18,801 nucleotides of DNA from assembly GCA_900551595.1 (NCBI GenBank), contig URWR01000013.1, forward strand, positions 1 to 18,801, written 5' to 3'. Origin of the DNA: an uncultured Coriobacteriaceae bacterium. GTDB taxonomy: Bacteria > Actinomycetota > Coriobacteriia > Coriobacteriales > Atopobiaceae. Of this stretch, positions 1,820-15,685 are shown one piece after another. The stretch's first letter is position 1, and every line of letters begins with the position of its first letter. Position numbers and translations under genes: made by a program. The notes beneath the pieces were generated by a model. The model was given only the letters and a program-made list of their open reading frames with translations, did not search any database and was not told where the DNA came from.

Positions 1820-1999
1820 CTTGCCGTTATGTTGTGAGTGCGGCTTATGAAATATTGCTAAATAAGCAAAAAATTGCCGAAGTTTTTATTAAAAAATTGC
1901 CGTATTTCTCTATTTCGGTAGTTCTGAAATGTTGTTCTCTTGTAAAGTCTCATCCATCAGAAGAGAACTGCAGATCACTTCGATTATTCATTCGACTTT
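1820..1999 (+). promoter_or_regulatory. AT-rich upstream region of the arg leader, with an 8-bp inverted repeat
   Basis: This 180-base gene-free stretch must hold the argG promoter. I see no clear -35/-10 pair; TAAAGT (1943-1948) is the nearest -10-like hexamer. A perfect inverted repeat GTTCTCTT (1934-1941)/AAGAGAAC (1961-1968) with a 19-base spacer could be an operator or an RNA hairpin. ATTATTCAT (1983-1991) resembles one half of an ArgR box, but the other half is absent. Confidence 0.4.
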
Positions 2000-2008
2000 G
2001 AGAGGAGG
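2000..2008 (+). promoter_or_regulatory. Strong ribosome binding site of the arg leader peptide
   Basis: GAGAGGAGG lies six bases before ATG 2015. It is among the strongest Shine-Dalgarno sequences in the window, which is hard to explain unless the 18-codon frame after it is translated. Confidence 0.8.
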
Positions 2009-2014
2009 CCCACA

Positions 2015-2071
2015 ATGCAGAACATGCTCACTCAGATGATGGACCTCCGACGCCAGGCTCGACGAATCTAG
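2015..2071 (+). CDS. Arginine leader peptide (attenuator ORF) upstream of argG
   Basis: The 18-residue frame MQNMLTQMMDLRRQARRI ends at TAG 2069-2071. It has four arginine codons in two pairs: CGA-CGC at 2048-2053 and CGA-CGA at 2060-2065. It is preceded by a near-perfect Shine-Dalgarno and followed 60 bases later by an intrinsic terminator that lies before argG, an arginine-biosynthetic gene. This is the layout of amino-acid leader peptides such as trpL and hisL: ribosomes stalled for charged tRNA-Arg would control the downstream hairpins. Three of the four Arg codons are CGA, whereas argG and its neighbours appear to favour CGT and CGC, which would sharpen stalling. The peptide itself probably has no function. 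Function is inferred; the sequence elements are directly seen. Confidence 0.82.
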   Translation: MQNMLTQMMDLRRQARRI

Positions 2072-2156
2072 CAGCGAAGCCAGCGCGCGTAGTTCTCAGT
2101 CCTTAAGCATACTGCTTACAAATGTGAACAGCACCTGGCACGCCGGGTGCTTTTTT
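2056..2156 (+). promoter_or_regulatory. Arginine transcription attenuator (alternative hairpins before argG)
   Basis: Three mutually exclusive pairings can be drawn. Segment 1:2 is GGCTCG (2056-2061) with CG-A-AGCC (2075-2081), overlapping the last Arg codons and leader stop. Segment 2:3 is an antiterminator in which GCCAG (2079-2083) pairs with CTGGC (2135-2139) and GTTC (2092-2095) pairs with GAAC (2126-2129), with a few extra pairs between; it encloses a small hairpin TAAGCA/TGCTTA (2104-2118). Segment 3:4 is the terminator at 2131-2150. A ribosome stalled on the Arg codons would cover segment 1 and free segment 2 for antitermination; one that reaches the stop codon would cover segment 2 and let the terminator form. 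Confidence 0.75.
2131..2156 (+). terminator. Attenuator terminator between leader peptide and argG
   Basis: GCACCTGG (2131-2138) pairs with CCGGGTGC (2143-2150), 8 bp with one wobble and a CACG tetraloop, followed by six T (2151-2156). It ends 148 bases before argG, so it can only act on the leader transcript. Confidence 0.9.
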
Positions 2157-2304: not shown

Positions 2305-3564
2305 ATGACCGCTACAGGACAAACCCCTCAGACAGATACTCCTAAAGAAAAGGTCGTGCTTGCATACTCAGGTGGCCTTGATACCTCGGTAATTGTTAAG
2401 TGGCTTCAGGTTGAGATGAATCTTGACGTCATTGCTATTTGCGGCAACGTCGGACAGGATGAGAAAGACCTCGCTGCAACGAAGCAGAAGGCGCTTGACC
2501 TCGGTGCTATTGTCTCCGAAGCAATTGATATGCGTGAGGAGTATGCTGACGTCATCCTTTCAAAAGCCATTTGGGCTAATGGCAAGTATGAAGGTACCTA
2601 CCCGCTGCTTTCTGCGCTTTCTCGTCCCCTTATTGCGAAGCATATTGTTGACTTGGCGCATCAGTACGGTGCGAAATATGTTGCGCATGGGTGCACAGGC
2701 AAAGGCAACGATCAGGTGCGTTTTGACACCTGCATCCACGGTCTCGATCCTTCACTTACTATTCTTGCACCGGTGCGTGAGTGGAATCTCACCACACGTG
2801 AAGAAGAGATGGAATGGGCAGAGGCTCATGGCGTGCCAGTTCCCACAACGCGCAAGCGTCCTTACTCCATTGACGACAATCTTTGGGGACGCGCTATTGA
2901 GTGTGGTGTCCTTGAGGACACATGGAACACACCACCTTCAGACATTTGGACTATGACGGCTAATCCCGAGGATTGCCCCAATGAGCCTGAAACTGTTGTC
3001 ATTGGTTTTGAGGGCGGTATCCCGACTTCTATCAATGGCGAGAAGATGTCACTTCTCGACGTTATTATCAAGGCAAACGAGATTGCAGGAAGAAATGGCT
3101 TTGGCCGCATCGATGTAATCGAAGATCGTGTTGTTGGTATTAAGAGCCGTGAGTGCTATGAGTGCCCTGCATCGCTGCTGCTTATTCAGGCACACCAAAC
3201 GCTTGAAAGCCTTTGCTTGGATGCAGAGTGCTTGCGCGAGAAGGCAAAGCTTGATGTTGACTGGGCGCACGCTGTGTATAACGGCCTTTGGTTCTCGCAG
3301 AATCGTATGGCCATTGATGCCTACAACGCCTACACACAGAAGTATGTCACCGGTGAAGTGCGTCTTAAGCTCTGCAAGGGCGGTCTGTTTGTTGATGGCA
3401 TGCGTTCGCCTTACAGCCTGTATGATTACGGTCTGGCAACGTATGACGAGGGCGACACCTTTGATCACACCGCTTCAAAGGGCTTCATTGAGCTTCATGG
3501 CCTGCAGTCAAGGACATGGTCACGTGTACAGGGTCCTGGCAGCGGTATGCAGTCGGCACTCTAG
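2305..3564 (+). CDS. argG: Argininosuccinate synthase
   Basis: It catalyses ATP-dependent condensation of citrulline and aspartate to argininosuccinate, the penultimate step of arginine synthesis, in the cytosol. The 419-aa length is close to the family norm (about 400). Visible signatures are the N-type ATP pyrophosphatase loop AYSGGLDTS (20-28), TYPLLSALSRPL, the AHGCTGKGNDQVRFD segment, and the C-terminal SLYDYGLATY region. The start at ATG 2305 is supported by AGGGAG (2293-2298) six bases upstream. The N-terminus carries about 14 extra polar residues before the conserved core. The gene is preceded by an arginine leader peptide and attenuator and followed by argH in the same direction, so this looks like an arg operon whose transcription is set by arginyl-tRNA supply. 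Confidence 0.98.
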   Translation: MTATGQTPQTDTPKEKVVLAYSGGLDTSVIVKWLQVEMNLDVIAICGNVGQDEKDLAATKQKALDLGAIVSEAIDMREEYADVILSKAIWANGKYEGTYPLLSALSRPLIAKHIVDLAHQYGAKYVAHGCTGKGNDQVRFDTCIHGLDPSLTILAPVREWNLTTREEEMEWAEAHGVPVPTTRKRPYSIDDNLWGRAIECGVLEDTWNTPPSDIWTMTANPEDCPNEPETVVIGFEGGIPTSINGEKMSLLDVIIKANEIAGRNGFGRIDVIEDRVVGIKSRECYECPASLLLIQAHQTLESLCLDAECLREKAKLDVDWAHAVYNGLWFSQNRMAIDAYNAYTQKYVTGEVRLKLCKGGLFVDGMRSPYSLYDYGLATYDEGDTFDHTASKGFIELHGLQSRTWSRVQGPGSGMQSAL

Positions 3565-3629
3565 AGCTCTGAACGTTCGTTCCATGAAACGACACATCTA
3601 TAAAGCTGCGTAGAGCAGCGACCAATATG

Positions 3630-3680
3630 ACGCTCTCATGCTGTATGCACTTCTTATTGTGCGCAGTGTGGGAGCGTTTC
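3630..3680 (+). terminator. Stem-loop between argG and argH, possible terminator
   Basis: ACGCTCTCA (3630-3638) pairs with TGGGAGCGT (3669-3677) with one wobble. Inside it CTG/CAG and GCAC (3647-3650)/GTGC (3659-3662) continue the hairpin. A short TTT (3677-3679) follows, weaker than the other terminators here. It may terminate part of the argG transcript or stabilise its 3' end. A smaller hairpin GCTGC/GCAGC lies at 3605-3619. Confidence 0.55.
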
Positions 3681-3726
3681 TCGATTAAGCTTGAAAGGTA
3701 CCAGATTTACGACGAAAGGGTGCATC

Positions 3727-5133
3727 ATGGCATTGTGGGGCGGCAGATTTGAAAAGGGTGTCGATGCGTTTACGCAGGAATTTGGAGCCTCACTTGAGGT
3801 AGATAAGGCCATGGCGTCGCAAGATATTGCTGGTAGTCGTGCTCATGCACGCATGCTTGCCGAGCAGGGGATAATTTCTGGAGAAGATCAGGCTGCAATT
3901 GATGAAGGGCTTCAGCGCATCGCTCAGCGCATTGAAGATGGCTCCTTTATATGGGATGTGAACGATGAAGATGTTCATATGGCAGTAGAAGGAGAGCTCA
4001 CGCGCGAAATTGGAACGCCGGGAGCGCGTCTACATACCGGGCGTTCGCGCAACGACCAGGTTGCGTGTGATCTGCGTCTGCTTGCAAAAGATCTCTGCAA
4101 CCATCTCATCCAGGGAAATATCGCACTTCGCCGGGTTCTTCTCGATGCTGCTGAGAAGAACCTTGATGTTGTCATGCCTGGCTATACACATCTTCAGCAT
4201 GCACAGCCAGTGTTGTTAGGCCATCACTTGCTGGCATATTTTTGGATGTTCTCGCGGGACTTTACGCGCCTTGTAGCCGCTCAAACCGCAGCGGATGCAA
4301 ATCCGCTTGGAGCGGCGGCGCTGGCGGGCACCACCTATCCGCTCGATCGCAAACGCACAAGCAAGCTTTTGGGATTCTCGCGCACCATTCCCAATTCAAT
4401 GGACGCTGTGTCTGACAGGGATTATCTACTTGACCTGGAATATGCCTGCTCGGTGAGCATGATGCATCTGTCACGTCTATGTGAGGAGATTGTCCTTTGG
4501 AGCACAACCGAGTTCGGATTTATCACGCTTTCGGATAGCTATGCTACAGGCTCTTCCATCATGCCGCAGAAGAAGAATCCTGACTTTGCTGAACTTACTC
4601 GTGGCAAGACTGGTCGTGTGTATGGCGACCTTATGGCGCTTCTCACCACGATGAAGTCGCTTCCGCTTGCCTATAACAAAGACCTGCAAGAGTGCAAAGA
4701 AGGGCCTTTGGATGCAGCGCATACGCTCTCAGATTGCATGGAGATAGCTGCTGGCATGATAGAAACGATGACAGTACATTCAGACGTTATGCTTGCGCAG
4801 GCAAAAACTGGGTTTACTGCAGCTACCGATGTGGCCGACTATCTCGCTAAAAAAGGAATGCCCTTCCGCGACGCTCACCGCGTGGTAGGAGAGCTGGTGT
4901 TGTATTGCGAGAAGCACGATAAGGGCTTAGAGGATCTCACGCTGGAGGAATTCCAGGCTGCAAGTCCTCTGTTTGAGGCAGACATTGTGAAAGATCTTGA
5001 TCCTGCAGGCATTGCAAATGCCCGTGTTACTTATGGTGGCACTGGTCATGATGCTGTGGTTGAACAACTTGCAGAAGCGCGCGCGGTATTAGCCACGGAT
5101 AAGAAAGAGATTGCTCAAGAATCAGACGAATAA
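3727..5133 (+). CDS. argH: Argininosuccinate lyase
   Basis: It cleaves argininosuccinate to arginine and fumarate, the last step of arginine synthesis. At 468 aa it is slightly longer than E. coli ArgH (457). The fumarase/lyase superfamily signature GSSIMPQKKNPD sits at 275-286 and includes the catalytic-loop serine. TGRSRNDQ (104-111) and GYTHLQHAQP (152-161, with His155 and His158) are the other conserved blocks. I chose ATG 3727, which follows GAAAGGG (3714-3720) by six bases and begins MALWGGRFEKG, the usual ArgH N-terminus. The in-frame TTG at 3691 lacks a ribosome site. It lies 162 bases after argG and 48 bases before the microprotein gene, with no terminator on that side. Confidence 0.98.
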   Translation: MALWGGRFEKGVDAFTQEFGASLEVDKAMASQDIAGSRAHARMLAEQGIISGEDQAAIDEGLQRIAQRIEDGSFIWDVNDEDVHMAVEGELTREIGTPGARLHTGRSRNDQVACDLRLLAKDLCNHLIQGNIALRRVLLDAAEKNLDVVMPGYTHLQHAQPVLLGHHLLAYFWMFSRDFTRLVAAQTAADANPLGAAALAGTTYPLDRKRTSKLLGFSRTIPNSMDAVSDRDYLLDLEYACSVSMMHLSRLCEEIVLWSTTEFGFITLSDSYATGSSIMPQKKNPDFAELTRGKTGRVYGDLMALLTTMKSLPLAYNKDLQECKEGPLDAAHTLSDCMEIAAGMIETMTVHSDVMLAQAKTGFTAATDVADYLAKKGMPFRDAHRVVGELVLYCEKHDKGLEDLTLEEFQAASPLFEADIVKDLDPAGIANARVTYGGTGHDAVVEQLAEARAVLATDKKEIAQESDE

Positions 5134-12535: not shown

Positions 12536-13351
12536 TCAGCGTATGCCAAGCAAATTGCTATAAAGCTGCCTGTCCTCATCGAGAAAGACGTCAAAAACGA
12601 CGGTCATGTTCGATTGAGGATGGTCAGCGAGCCATTGACTAACTGTCGTAACGGCAATATGAGCTGCTTTGTCCTGTGGGAATCCAAAAACGCCCGTAGA
12701 GATACAACAGAATGCAATACTGGAGAGTCTGCTTGCCAAAGCTGCATCGAGGCAAGCGTTATAGCACTGTGCAAGCTGTTGGCTTTGAGCGTCTGAGAGG
12801 AATCCTTGTGCAATGGGGCCTACGGTGTGAATAATACGCTGGCATGGTAGGTTATAGGCTTGTGTGATTCGAGCGTAGCCAGTTGGTTCGGGATGACCTT
12901 GTTCTGCCATTGCCTGAGCACATTCAAGGCGTAGCTGTACGCCAGCAAACGTATGGATAGCGTTATCAATACACGAATGAAGTGGCTACCAACATCCTGT
13001 CATGCCTGAATTTGCTGCATTAACAATGGCATCAGCTGCGAGCAGCGTAATATCGCTCTGAATGAGGCGTAACTGAGAATTGTTGGGTGCCGGTGTGGTG
13101 TCTGCAAGGGTGCATATACCACGCTCTGCAATTATCCCTTGGAGCAGTTCGTTCTGCTCAGTGAGAAAATGCTTATCGGCAGGAACTGGCTTGCGCGTAT
13201 TTACAAGCGCTCTAAAGCACGCCCAAAGCTCAGGAATCGAAGCATCAGAAGTTGGCAGAGAAGTGGGAAGCCAGCCGCCTTGAGTTTGTCTCTCTTGAAT
13301 GAGCCAGTTTGTTGTAGAAACAAGAAGTTCCTGCATCCTAATCTCGTTCAT
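12536..13351 (-). pseudogene. Zinc-type macrodomain ADP-ribosylglycohydrolase, interrupted by an in-frame amber codon
   Basis: Read through, this is a 271-codon gene matching the length and layout of the zinc-dependent macrodomains found beside SirTM sirtuins (about 270 aa). Such enzymes remove ADP-ribose placed on proteins by SirTM. Residues 1-90 are the helical N-terminal region. The macro fold begins at RLIQSDITLLAADAIVNAAN, and the predicted zinc-loop residues are Cys120, His125 and Cys127 (TGCW-stop-PLHSCIDNAIH). Later blocks are IIHTVGP and CISTGVFGFP. Codon 122 is TAG (plus-strand 12986-12988), with the reading frame unchanged on both sides; CAG to TAG is the simplest explanation. The start ATG 13351 follows AGAGAGG at about seven bases. 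As written it should give only an inactive 121-residue fragment, unless the stop is suppressed or is a sequencing error. Confidence 0.88.
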
Positions 13352-13370
13352 GATGCACCTCTCTGTCGAA

Positions 13371-13403
13371 CATCTGACTCAAGAGGGGGTCTTGAGCCAG
13401 ATG
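13371..13403 (-). other. 14-bp hairpin between the YwnB-like gene and the macrodomain gene
   Basis: On the minus-strand transcript CAUCUG-G-CUCAAGA pairs with UCUUGAG-U-CAGAUG around a CCCCC loop, an unbroken 14-bp stem including one G-U pair. On the plus strand the same position is an A-C mismatch, so the structure is built for minus-strand RNA. It ends 19 bases before the macrodomain start codon. No U-tract follows, so it is more likely a processing or stability element than a terminator. Confidence 0.65.
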
Positions 13404-13412
13404 TATTGTTCA

Positions 13413-14048
13413 CTAACGGCGTACGACAGAAATACGCTGTTGGATATGAGCATCATTATTGCGCTCAAGTTCATCAACAAGCGCAAGAGCATAATCAACG
13501 TACGAAATGATGGATTCGCCGCGCTCGTTCAGTGTAAGTTCCTCTCCGCCGAGGATGTAGGCACCTGTGCACTCACCATCTGCTTGGAAATCCCCAGCAG
13601 GAGAGATGTAGGTCCACTTCACATCTGAGCGCTCACGAAGCTCGGTAAGCGCCTCGCCCATTGCGTTGGCGAGAGGTTTGAACACCTCAGGGAAGTCTGC
13701 TCCGTCCTTAACACAAACAGTATGTTCGGGGTCAACATAAAGACTGCCAGCACCGCCCACAACAACAAGACGAACATCGGTGTTTGAAAGAATATCGCAC
13801 AGATGTTTAAGGGAGCTAGAATGCTGAGGAAGTGTCTCAGGAGTCCATGCACCAAATGCATCTACGACGGCATCAAAATCAGCAAGGTCTTCGGGGGTAA
13901 GGTCAAAGAGATCCTTATTAAGGTACTGCTCAGAGCAAGATTTATTGTCCCCTCGTGCGATAGCGGTCACATCATGTCCGCGCTTGATGGCTTCCTCTAC
14001 AACAAATTGACCAACACGACCATTTGAGTAAACAACTGCGATTTTCAT
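13413..14048 (-). CDS. NAD(P)-binding YwnB/NmrA-like short-chain oxidoreductase family protein
   Basis: A 211-aa Rossmann-fold protein. The N-terminus MKIAVVYSNGRVGQFVVEEAIKRG is broken by a glycine turn of the form SNGRVG (8-13), an atypical dinucleotide loop as in the NAD(P)H-binding YwnB/NmrA group. LVVVGGAGSLYVDP and KWTYISPAG are further family blocks. Length agrees with B. subtilis YwnB (about 213). It probably binds NAD(P)(H), but a catalytic Tyr-x3-Lys is not obvious, so a sensor or reductase role is unresolved. ATG 14048 is preceded by GAAAGG at seven bases. Its promoter region carries three palindromic operators. In Bacilli, ywnB sits beside an Rrf2-type ywnA gene, which the present neighbourhood mirrors. 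Confidence 0.87.
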   Translation of the reverse strand: MKIAVVYSNGRVGQFVVEEAIKRGHDVTAIARGDNKSCSEQYLNKDLFDLTPEDLADFDAVVDAFGAWTPETLPQHSSSLKHLCDILSNTDVRLVVVGGAGSLYVDPEHTVCVKDGADFPEVFKPLANAMGEALTELRERSDVKWTYISPAGDFQADGECTGAYILGGEELTLNERGESIISYVDYALALVDELERNNDAHIQQRISVVRR

Positions 14049-14075
14049 AGCAAGACCTTTCTTCTGTTCATCTGT

Positions 14076-14098
14076 ATTGTAATAATCGCTATTACAAC
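14076..14098. promoter_or_regulatory. Rrf2-type operator, copy 1
   Basis: ATTGTAA-N9-TTACAAC; the symmetrical core extends to TTGTAATA/TATTACAA. It lies 28 bases upstream of the YwnB-like start, downstream of that gene's probable -10. It matches the other three palindromes of this locus. Confidence 0.75.
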
Positions 14099-14106
14099 TC
14101 TGACAA

Positions 14107-14135
14107 TATGTAGTAAACAGCAGTTACGTTGTAAA
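14107..14135 (-). promoter_or_regulatory. Possible promoter of the YwnB-like gene
   Basis: On the minus strand TTTACA (14135-14130), a 17-base spacer and TACATA (14112-14107). The -35 overlaps operator copy 2, and operator copy 1 lies just downstream, a layout suited to repression. The -10 is weak. Confidence 0.4.
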
Positions 14136-14150
14136 TACAATAGTTACAAC
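14128..14150. promoter_or_regulatory. Rrf2-type operator, copy 2
   Basis: GTTGTAA-N9-TTACAAC, perfect 7-bp arms. Its start is 52 bp from copy 1, about five helical turns. Confidence 0.78.
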
Positions 14151-14181
14151 TAAGAATGACGGGACTCCATAAAGTCCGCAC

Positions 14182-14204
14182 GTTGTAATAAGAATGATTA
14201 CAAC
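14182..14204. promoter_or_regulatory. Rrf2-type operator, copy 3
   Basis: GTTGTAA-N9-TTACAAC; the arms extend to GTTGTAAT/ATTACAAC. It is 54 bp from copy 2 and lies 36 bases from the sirtuin stop codon. A small hairpin GGACT/AGTCC sits between copies 2 and 3 (14162-14177). Confidence 0.78.
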
Positions 14205-14240
14205 AAAGGGAAAGGCACAAAGTCTTGGTCAAACTGTTTG

Positions 14241-15176
14241 TTAGGAGAGGCTTAGATGTCCTTTAAGCGAAGACAGCGTTGATGCAATATCAGCATCAAT
14301 GAGAATTGCCTGATGTTCTAGGACGGCAGGAGCAAGTGATTCCCCAAGGTTTATGCAAGCATACGTTGCCTGAGGGTTCTTGCTAACGTCATTCCAGAAA
14401 GGGAATTTAATGATGGAGGGTGTGTTATATCCCACACCAAGCTCGAGATAGAGAGCGTGCATATCTTGATGATGCTGCTGGAAATCTGCCCATCGCTGTG
14501 CTGCCTGGTGCCAGCCACGGTCTTCTACAAACGTGTTATCTGCACGGAGATTCATCGCGAAGGGTCTGCCGCATACAGGACAGTGTGGAACAAGATCCGT
14601 TGGAATTTGCATTGCTGGCGTAGTGTCGGCGGGAAGCCTAAAGATACCATCGTTGTCTTGGACATAGCCCTGGCTCTCCAGCATGGCAAAAACAGCACTG
14701 CGATTGTCATAGGTTTTTAGATGACAAGGCTTGCTGCATTGCCATAAACCATAATCTCCTTGTGTATAGAAAAGACGCTCCTTCTCAAACCCTGCTCTCT
14801 GAAATTGATGATCAACATTTGTGGTCAGAACAAAATAATCTCGATCACATACGAGCTCATAAAGAGTTTGATAGGGGGCTCCGACAGCGCATCCATAGCG
14901 ATTGCAATAGATAAATCGGCTCCAATAGGCCCATTGCTCTTCAAGAGAGGAAAAGGGAAAGAATCCGCCGGAATACATGTCATGGATGCCGTAGGCGCGC
15001 TCAAAATCATCAAACCATTGCGTAAAGCGAGCTCCTGAATAGGTAAGCCCTGCAGAGGTGGAGAGTCCTGCCCCTGCACCAATAACAATGGCATCAGCCT
15101 GCCCAAAGGCTTCAATAAGACGATCAATCTGTTGTTGAGGAGTCTGACTTTGTGAACGAGCGTTTATGAACTGCAT
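14241..15176 (-). CDS. Class-M sirtuin (SirTM), predicted protein ADP-ribosyltransferase
   Basis: A 311-aa Sir2-fold protein. The NAD-binding motif GAGAGLSTSAGLTYSG is at 33-48 and TTNVD at 118-122. Zinc ligands are Cys147/Cys151 (CSKPC) and Cys199/Cys202 (CPVC). In deacetylase sirtuins a catalytic His precedes Gly; here the position reads YTQGDYG with Gln139, as in the SirTM class, which modifies proteins with ADP-ribose instead of deacetylating. A macrodomain gene that would reverse the modification lies nearby. I chose ATG 15176, which has GGTGGAG two bases upstream (a short spacing); a TTG at 15191 is possible. It begins 16 bases after the rrf2-type stop, so both are probably on one transcript. 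The usual lipoylated target GcvH-L and its ligase are not in the window. Confidence 0.88.
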   Translation of the reverse strand: MQFINARSQSQTPQQQIDRLIEAFGQADAIVIGAGAGLSTSAGLTYSGARFTQWFDDFERAYGIHDMYSGGFFPFSSLEEQWAYWSRFIYCNRYGCAVGAPYQTLYELVCDRDYFVLTTNVDHQFQRAGFEKERLFYTQGDYGLWQCSKPCHLKTYDNRSAVFAMLESQGYVQDNDGIFRLPADTTPAMQIPTDLVPHCPVCGRPFAMNLRADNTFVEDRGWHQAAQRWADFQQHHQDMHALYLELGVGYNTPSIIKFPFWNDVSKNPQATYACINLGESLAPAVLEHQAILIDADIASTLSSLKGHLSLS

Positions 15177-15192
15177 AACTCCACCAGACAAT

Positions 15193-15633
15193 CTAAGCGT
15201 TTTGCTCTGTGATTTGGCCGGTTAATCTATCGGTTAGATCGGCAAGTGTTGTCTTGGCAAGGCGATCTTCAAGCGCTTGCTGAGCTGCAAGAAGCTCTGC
15301 ATCAAGCACCTCATGAATATTTCGACCAACAGGACATGCTTCATTGGGATTGGGATGGAAATTAAAGAGTGTGCCATCAACACACTCGACAGCTCGATAC
15401 ACATCGAGGAGTGTAATTTGGTTTGCAGGACGAGCAAGAGAAGCCCCGCCAACACCCGCTTCAACCGTAACAATATGAGCGTCTTTAAGCTGTCCAAGTG
15501 TCTTGCGGATAATAACCGGATTTACGTTGACGCTTTGAGCAATAAAAGTAGATGTGGTCTTGTGCTCTGGAGAAAAATACTGGATACAGAGCAGGGTGTG
15601 GATAGCAATAGTAAAACGTGTTGATATTTGCAT
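15193..15633 (-). CDS. Rrf2-family transcriptional repressor (YwnA-like)
   Basis: A 146-aa winged-helix regulator. The N-terminus MQISTRFTIAIHTLLCI and the block VNPVIIRKTLGQLKDAHIV (about 38-55, the recognition region) followed by GVGGASLAR (the wing) are typical Rrf2 features. It lacks the three clustered cysteines of IscR-type Fe-S members; only Cys84 and Cys100 (in ACPVG) lie in that part, plus Cys16 near the N-terminus. This fits the YwnA-type subgroup, and Cys100 could be a redox switch, which is inference. ATG 15633 is chosen because AGAGGA (15645-15640) lies six bases upstream; an earlier in-frame ATG at 15648 overlaps that site. One palindromic operator covers its own promoter, so it probably represses itself. 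Confidence 0.92.
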   Translation of the reverse strand: MQISTRFTIAIHTLLCIQYFSPEHKTTSTFIAQSVNVNPVIIRKTLGQLKDAHIVTVEAGVGGASLARPANQITLLDVYRAVECVDGTLFNFHPNPNEACPVGRNIHEVLDAELLAAQQALEDRLAKTTLADLTDRLTGQITEQNA

Positions 15634-15685
15634 CGATGATCCTCTCATGTCAGGTCGTACAGAAGTGACCTAGTACCTCACAATC

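Follow-up and report, generated by a model that had tools for sequence, protein, structure and literature searches.

Organization of the region upstream of argG

The window analyzed in this study is the whole 18,801-nt stretch of DNA from an uncultured Coriobacteriaceae bacterium. Two genes on its plus strand, presumably argG and argH to judge by their sequences, are preceded by a short open reading frame, three segments capable of alternative pairing and an intrinsic terminator (Table 1). The short frame has 18 codons and a TAG stop (2069-2071), and contains two pairs of Arg codons, CGA CGC (2048-2053) and CGA CGA (2060-2065), three of the four being CGA. An earlier note on this DNA had described a strong Shine-Dalgarno, an 18-codon frame with four Arg codons (three CGA) and an intrinsic terminator before argG; sequence and translation confirmed the former, and a terminator scan recovered the latter as a hairpin followed by a T run. 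The 162-nt gap between argG and argH (3565-3726) has a possible hairpin, and argH may or may not lie on the argG transcript.

Table 1. Features of the argG leader region and downstream genes in the window
Feature	Position	Strand	Basis or remark
-10-like hexamer TAAAGT	1943-1948	+	66 nt 5' of the leader ATG; probable leader promoter
Shine-Dalgarno AGAGGAGG	2001-2008	+	read from sequence; start and Shine-Dalgarno in frame in 48/48 copies
Leader peptide frame MQNMLTQMMDLRRQARRI	2015-2071	+	translation, ATG at 2015; frame conserved among copies
Conserved motif CGA CGC CAG nnn CGA CG[A/T] A[T/C]C (RRQxRR[I/T]), putative regulatory Arg codons	2048-2068	+	comparison of copies
Region 1, overlapping motif codons 3-6; partner of region 2	2054-2065	+	swap test, pair counts; weak in the window (-4.3 kcal/mol)
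Region 2, 5' half of antiterminator	2079-2098	+	duplex energies, folding, covariation
Region 3, 3' half of antiterminator, overlapping the terminator 5' arm	2123-2139	+	duplex energies, folding, covariation
Intrinsic terminator (3:4), hairpin 2130-2151 plus T tract	2130-2156	+	terminator scan, pair counts
argG, presumed argininosuccinate synthase, putative controlled gene	2305-3564	+	open reading frame; used to fetch relatives
argH, presumed argininosuccinate lyase, next gene	3727-5133	+	open reading frame

The RNA of the window taken by itself was not distinguishable from chance. The terminator was one of two sites in the scanned 1.1 kb (shuffled sequences gave 0.9), and the whole leader folded no better than its shuffles (z = -0.60). 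Its 2:3 duplex (-13.4 kcal/mol), the weakest among the 48 copies compared below, was equalled by 38% of swapped partners, and its 1:2 duplex was also among the weakest of these copies. In folding calculations the terminator formed at equilibrium even with the Arg codons masked. The window may be a drifting copy, or the switch may be kinetic. Because the window alone folds no better than shuffles, the case rests on its relatives. The three competing pairings proposed in the earlier note could indeed be folded as claimed and covaried in relatives, whereas in the window alone they did not exceed chance.

Distribution and conservation of the leader

Of 80 loci fetched by ArgG, 66 loci of Coriobacteriia (L001-L066) were examined for leaders, and 14 (L067-L080) were left out. 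A leader, either with RRQxRR or in a degenerate form with the second half kept, preceded argG in 38 of the 66 loci, which include one without upstream DNA (L056) and one false match to a loose pattern (L064). Screening of 396 genomes of the class with a strict DNA pattern (at most one mismatch) gave 94 sites in 88 genomes. Of these, 66 were located 136-322 nt upstream of the argG alignment start, one per genome, so that at least 66 of the 396 genomes carry the leader; this is a lower bound because two genomes (G018 and G019) have degenerate leaders missed by the pattern. The other 28 sites were not near a listed argG, and the three inspected were all inside coding frames; since argG genes were listed only down to about 60% identity, unlisted argG genes might adjoin some of these sites. 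The pattern was found at 37 of 72 listed argG genes with at least 76% identity and at 29 of 37 with 63-75% identity. A further set of 40 upstream regions, mainly from more distant genomes (three repeat genomes already covered), contained 30 leaders.

On an ArgG tree of 77 rows the leader label changed five times, compared with 22.6 times in shuffles. The changes were confined to one clade with good support, to which Slackia and Atopobiaceae belong; some long branches were flagged. One gain followed by several losses would fit this tree, which is no proof of such a history. A nearly sequence-only model built on the 48-copy alignment was used to search 296 genomes of the phylum. Among the 23 genomes listed with a match, the only strong ones were two members of the class (G001 and G034); 10 of the 22 weaker sites were inspected, and none had argG or argH nearby, the best (G067) lying in an unrelated operon. 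With regard to other arginine genes, the argC start was located in 10 of 18 regions (six of these genomes carry the argG leader), and no RRQxRR leader was seen in the 380 nt upstream of it; argJ was present in 13 of 19 leader carriers tested. One locus (L213) has a frame upstream of argC with four scattered Arg codons.

For comparison of the 69 copies, three without a terminator (L025, L029 and L160) were not aligned, 13 of the remaining 66 had their 3' ends set by hand, and non-redundant sets of 48 copies (<95% identity) and, more strictly, 31 copies (<80% identity) were used. In all 48 copies the motif frame had a start codon preceded by a Shine-Dalgarno of four or more bases; each other frame had one in only two copies. 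The number of codons before the motif ranged from 9 to 22, and the sequence of this part of the peptide was not conserved. Leaders stop 7 to 22 codons after the motif start. The tail in the window is one of the two shortest; most relatives extend further, many with a second Arg cluster (e.g., RRQDRRTTLRRQRVLS), and in longer leaders the motif and what follows it contain as many as eight Arg codons. The RRQxRR motif, with argG downstream, is a cluster of codons for the end product of the pathway.

Five of the 69 copies (L025, L026, L028, L029 and L036) were degenerate: their first Arg pair was missing one codon or both, while CAGnnnCGACGAATC was kept; three of the five retained the terminator and the other two had no recognisable one. 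The earlier note had proposed alignment of argG upstream regions in related Coriobacteriia as its check and had named loss of the Arg codons or frame with retention of the terminator as an outcome against it. The frame, the Arg codons and compensatory stem changes were all found in these relatives, and such a loss was not the rule. Six leaderless argG genes (L032, L034, L035, L037, L039 and L041) have, by eye, -10-like TAGAAT or TATAGT hexamers near the gene, as if transcription started just upstream.

Alternative RNA stems and proposed mechanism

Region 2 is located 30-60 nt 3' of the motif start, and region 3 lies just before the terminator and extends into its 5' arm, so that the antiterminator (2:3) and the terminator (3:4) share region 3 and are mutually exclusive. 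RNAalifold kept only three pairs on the 48-copy alignment because one structure cannot show alternative stems and a variable middle; swap tests and pair counts for named structures were therefore used instead.

First, the 2:3 stem covaried in the swap test. The mean duplex energy of the copies' own partners was -20.3 kcal/mol, compared with -16.3 kcal/mol when region 3 was permuted among copies (z = -8.9, with 0 of 20,000 permutations as low; z = -6.9 in the 31 copies below 80% identity), and control stretches gave z values of 0.6 to 1.3. Over eight aligned pairs, 76.9% of cells could pair, compared with 21-53% in slid versions, and seven of the eight pairs had changes on both sides. Second, the 3:4 terminator was similarly supported (z = -8.6 for 48 copies and -7.3 for the 31 copies; 88.2% of cells paired). 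A T tract, defined as at least five T within eight nucleotides 3' of the stem, was found in 42 of the 48 aligned copies, six lacking a good one, and an automatic scan placed the best hairpin at the expected position in 62 of 69 copies (exceptions: L006, L009, L025, L029, L053, L160 and L179). Third, the 1:2 stem gave z values of -5.6 (48 copies) and -4.7 (31 copies), with controls at -1.0 and -0.2. Pair counts supported this stem less clearly: 66.9% of cells paired versus 59.7% in one slid version, its covariation score was no better than that of a one-column slide (0.212 versus 0.211), and its covarying part is the otherwise free codon 4. Finally, a small hairpin directly after the motif showed no covariation (z = -1.6).

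Considering the frame with its Shine-Dalgarno and Arg codons, the terminator, the covariation of the alternative stems and the association with argG, we regard it as very likely that transcription of argG, and perhaps argH, is controlled here by ribosome-mediated attenuation of the trp/his kind, with charged tRNA-Arg as the signal. The same reading had been put forward in the earlier note, and the comparison among relatives supports it well at the level of sequence. According to this model, RNA polymerase would make the leader with a ribosome following behind. When charged tRNA-Arg is ample, the ribosome would pass the CGA/CGC/CGT codons and reach the stop. There its footprint would mask region 2 in its 5' part, or the ribosome would leave and 1:2 would form; with region 2 blocked, the 3:4 terminator would halt transcription before argG. 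When arginyl-tRNA is scarce, the ribosome would wait on the Arg codons and cover region 1, and the freed region 2 would pair with region 3, so that no terminator would form and argG would be transcribed. Translation of the leader, stalling, termination and the response to arginine are the predicted parts of this model. The sign is very probably the expected one, with arginine shortage turning argG on.

Codon choice in the leader motif

The use of synonymous Arg codons in the motif was constrained. Among the 48 copies, 45 have Arg at codon 1, always as CGA, codon 5 was CGA and codon 3 CAG in all 48, and CGG, AGA and AGG were absent from the 189 Arg codons of the first cluster. Since these copies had been picked by patterns containing CAG and the second CGA, the count was repeated in a codon-blind manner. 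When all frames of 107 regions upstream of argG were scanned for RRQxRR, 67 sites were found, 64 of which were leaders, and CGA occupied codons 1 and 5 in all 64; the other three sites (L060, L061 and L063) had different codons and no strong in-frame start. In the background of 13 loci including the window, CGA accounted for 11.4% of Arg codons and CGG, AGA and AGG together for 27%. Codons 2, 4 and 6 vary in their third bases, so the fixed CGA codons do not result from lack of divergence. CAG already makes up 61-99% of background Gln codons, and thus the third base of codon 3 says little. RNA pairing alone was also considered as the cause of the fixed CGA third bases and rejected, the best single partner having a mean probability of 0.05 for codon 1 and 0.12 for codon 5.

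Bacteria generally use a single tRNA-Arg with inosine to decode CGU, CGC and CGA. A tentative extension of the attenuator model, which we consider possible though somewhat doubtful, is that the leader is a codon-specific sensor, in which the fixed CGA codons would report how well this single tRNA-Arg is charged, or whether it carries its inosine. A single isoacceptor would in that case govern arginine synthesis, and the leader might act as a graded switch that takes over from ArgR at argG, with ArgR keeping the other arginine genes.

The motif could also be read as an arrest peptide, in which the nascent RRQxRR would stall the ribosome on a ligand such as free arginine, citrulline or ornithine, upstream of the same RNA switch. 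TnaC is a ligand-sensing leader peptide of this type. The two Arg pairs keep both their distance from each other and the intervening Gln, and in a codon-blind scan of regions without the motif, Arg pairs around a residue other than Gln occurred with a strong in-frame start just once (L163). In addition, a known ornithine decarboxylase leader has two consecutive Arg codons (PMC6386406). However, a peptide sensor would have no need of the constrained synonymous choice, residues before the motif are not conserved, and codon 4 varies as an amino acid but covaries as RNA. Moreover, high arginine inducing a gene of arginine synthesis would have the wrong sign. We thus consider this explanation unlikely. 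Attenuation by charged tRNA-Arg might instead be replaced by a general response to slow translation caused by antibiotics or any starvation, given that region 2 would be released by whatever stalls a ribosome close to region 1 and that CGA is as a rule a slow codon; the link to argG and the Arg clusters with up to eight Arg codons speak for a specific signal, and make such a general sensor very improbable.

Promoter, ArgR and other regulatory elements

A -10-like pattern, TA[TA]A[GA]T, which was picked after looking at the upstream regions, was sought 45-100 nt upstream of the leader ATG; 29 of 48 copies have it (at 55-91 nt), compared with 4% in shuffles. In the window, no -35 consensus was found upstream of the leader. 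The position of the hexamer speaks against transcription starting downstream of 2071, although it maps no start. A direct repeat, AAAAAATTGCCG, is visible by eye at 1868-1879 and 1891-1902, 23 nt apart, in AT-rich sequence before the presumed promoter, and could be an operator.

ArgR (PF01316) was detected in 326 of the 396 class genomes and in 56 of the 66 leader carriers, which suggests that the leader supplements ArgR or divides the task with it, and that arginine control does not require the leader. An ARG-box-like palindrome (e.g., TATGCACAAAAATGCATA) was found before argG in three of 26 leaderless loci (L012, L016 and L027). At up to two mismatches, the palindrome TATGCATAAWWWTGCATA occurred in none of 39 leader-bearing loci, the best site in the window having four mismatches; the true box of these bacteria may differ, and weaker boxes are possible. 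As the pattern was read off the three positive loci, this contrast is only a lead. In these loci the palindrome is near TATGCATAAAAATGCATA and starts 197-205 nt before the argG match, and the argG of this clade has no leader.

These data bear on the possibility that the motif is a DNA operator for ArgR or another repressor, or an RNA-protein site, with the frame and stems being incidental. Conservation of the motif at the DNA level including third bases, and the presence of ArgR in most carriers, would agree with it, but it leaves the conserved frame, start and Shine-Dalgarno and the covarying stems unexplained, and the palindrome appeared, as far as that lead goes, in leaderless loci instead; we therefore regard it as extremely unlikely. 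That a random short frame happens to precede the terminator of an upstream tRNA-Lys transcript, as the chance-level folding of the window alone would allow, is refuted by conservation in relatives and has a negligible probability.

A search of the window against Rfam with gathering and relaxed thresholds identified no family, the relaxed matches having E values of 0.95 or worse, far below the cut-offs. No T-box reached the Rfam threshold in the window, in agreement with the earlier note, or in 13 loci (one leader-bearing), in which Rfam matched tRNAs only.

Comparison with known systems

Leader-peptide attenuators of the trpL type control the trp, his, leu, ilv, thr and phe operons, and control of arginine synthesis is known through ArgR and T-boxes. 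The argG leader resembles the trpL type in having a short translated frame as predicted, tandem codons for the end product, stems 1:2, 2:3 and 3:4, an intrinsic terminator and a biosynthetic gene downstream. It differs in that the amino acid is arginine, that the two Arg pairs are split by a fixed Gln and a variable codon, that the first cluster uses only CGA, CGC and CGT, and that a second Arg cluster is often present. By description it can also be likened to the fungal arginine attenuator peptide, an upstream frame before an arginine gene that responds to arginine; in contrast with the argG leader, this is a eukaryotic arrest peptide that represses at high arginine.

In Actinobacteria, the same phylum, attenuators of the same kind have been predicted for trp, trpS, leuS, ilvB and cys leaders, and for the genomes analyzed there that 2005 study reports that no RNA structure is conserved before arginine operons (PMC1262725). 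The main text of a broad survey of premature terminators names neither arginine nor argG (PMC2965389). Two Arg-sensing leaders of another design are described in other reports. In Salmonella, consecutive Arg codons of the speF leader orf34 sense low arginine and alter RNA folding (PMC6386406); orf34 controls a polyamine gene via RNase G decay, Rho and masking of the ribosome-binding site, whereas the argG leader has an intrinsic terminator before a gene of arginine synthesis, and argG rather than the ornithine decarboxylase gene characteristic of the orf34 family lies downstream. In Staphylococcus aureus, the short leader rbfL senses arginine limitation through Arg codons, but these are AGA/AGG, low arginine represses, and the leader blocks the ribosome site of a biofilm regulator (PMC13009471). 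The carA gene of Pseudomonas aeruginosa, common to arginine and pyrimidine synthesis, also has a leader peptide, which belongs to another gene and another group (PMC4997734).

The earlier note knew of no described arginine leader-peptide attenuator in this group, and the literature searched, which lacked most subscription papers, yielded none for an arginine-synthesis gene. On the best reading, arginine as the sensed amino acid and the striking codon choice are new, and the kind of element, ribosome-mediated attenuation, is already known. If true, the attenuator model would fill the arginine gap among the textbook attenuators with an element that, although apparently lost in places, has persisted in much of a bacterial class. 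It would also offer a natural test of why CGA codons serve as stall sites, and would bear on arginine production by Coriobacteriia.

Elsewhere in the window, two adjoining frames on the minus strand (12536-15648) resemble a single broken macrodomain gene. Their neighbours, judged from sequence, are presumably reductase-like, sirtuin-like and Rrf2-like genes.
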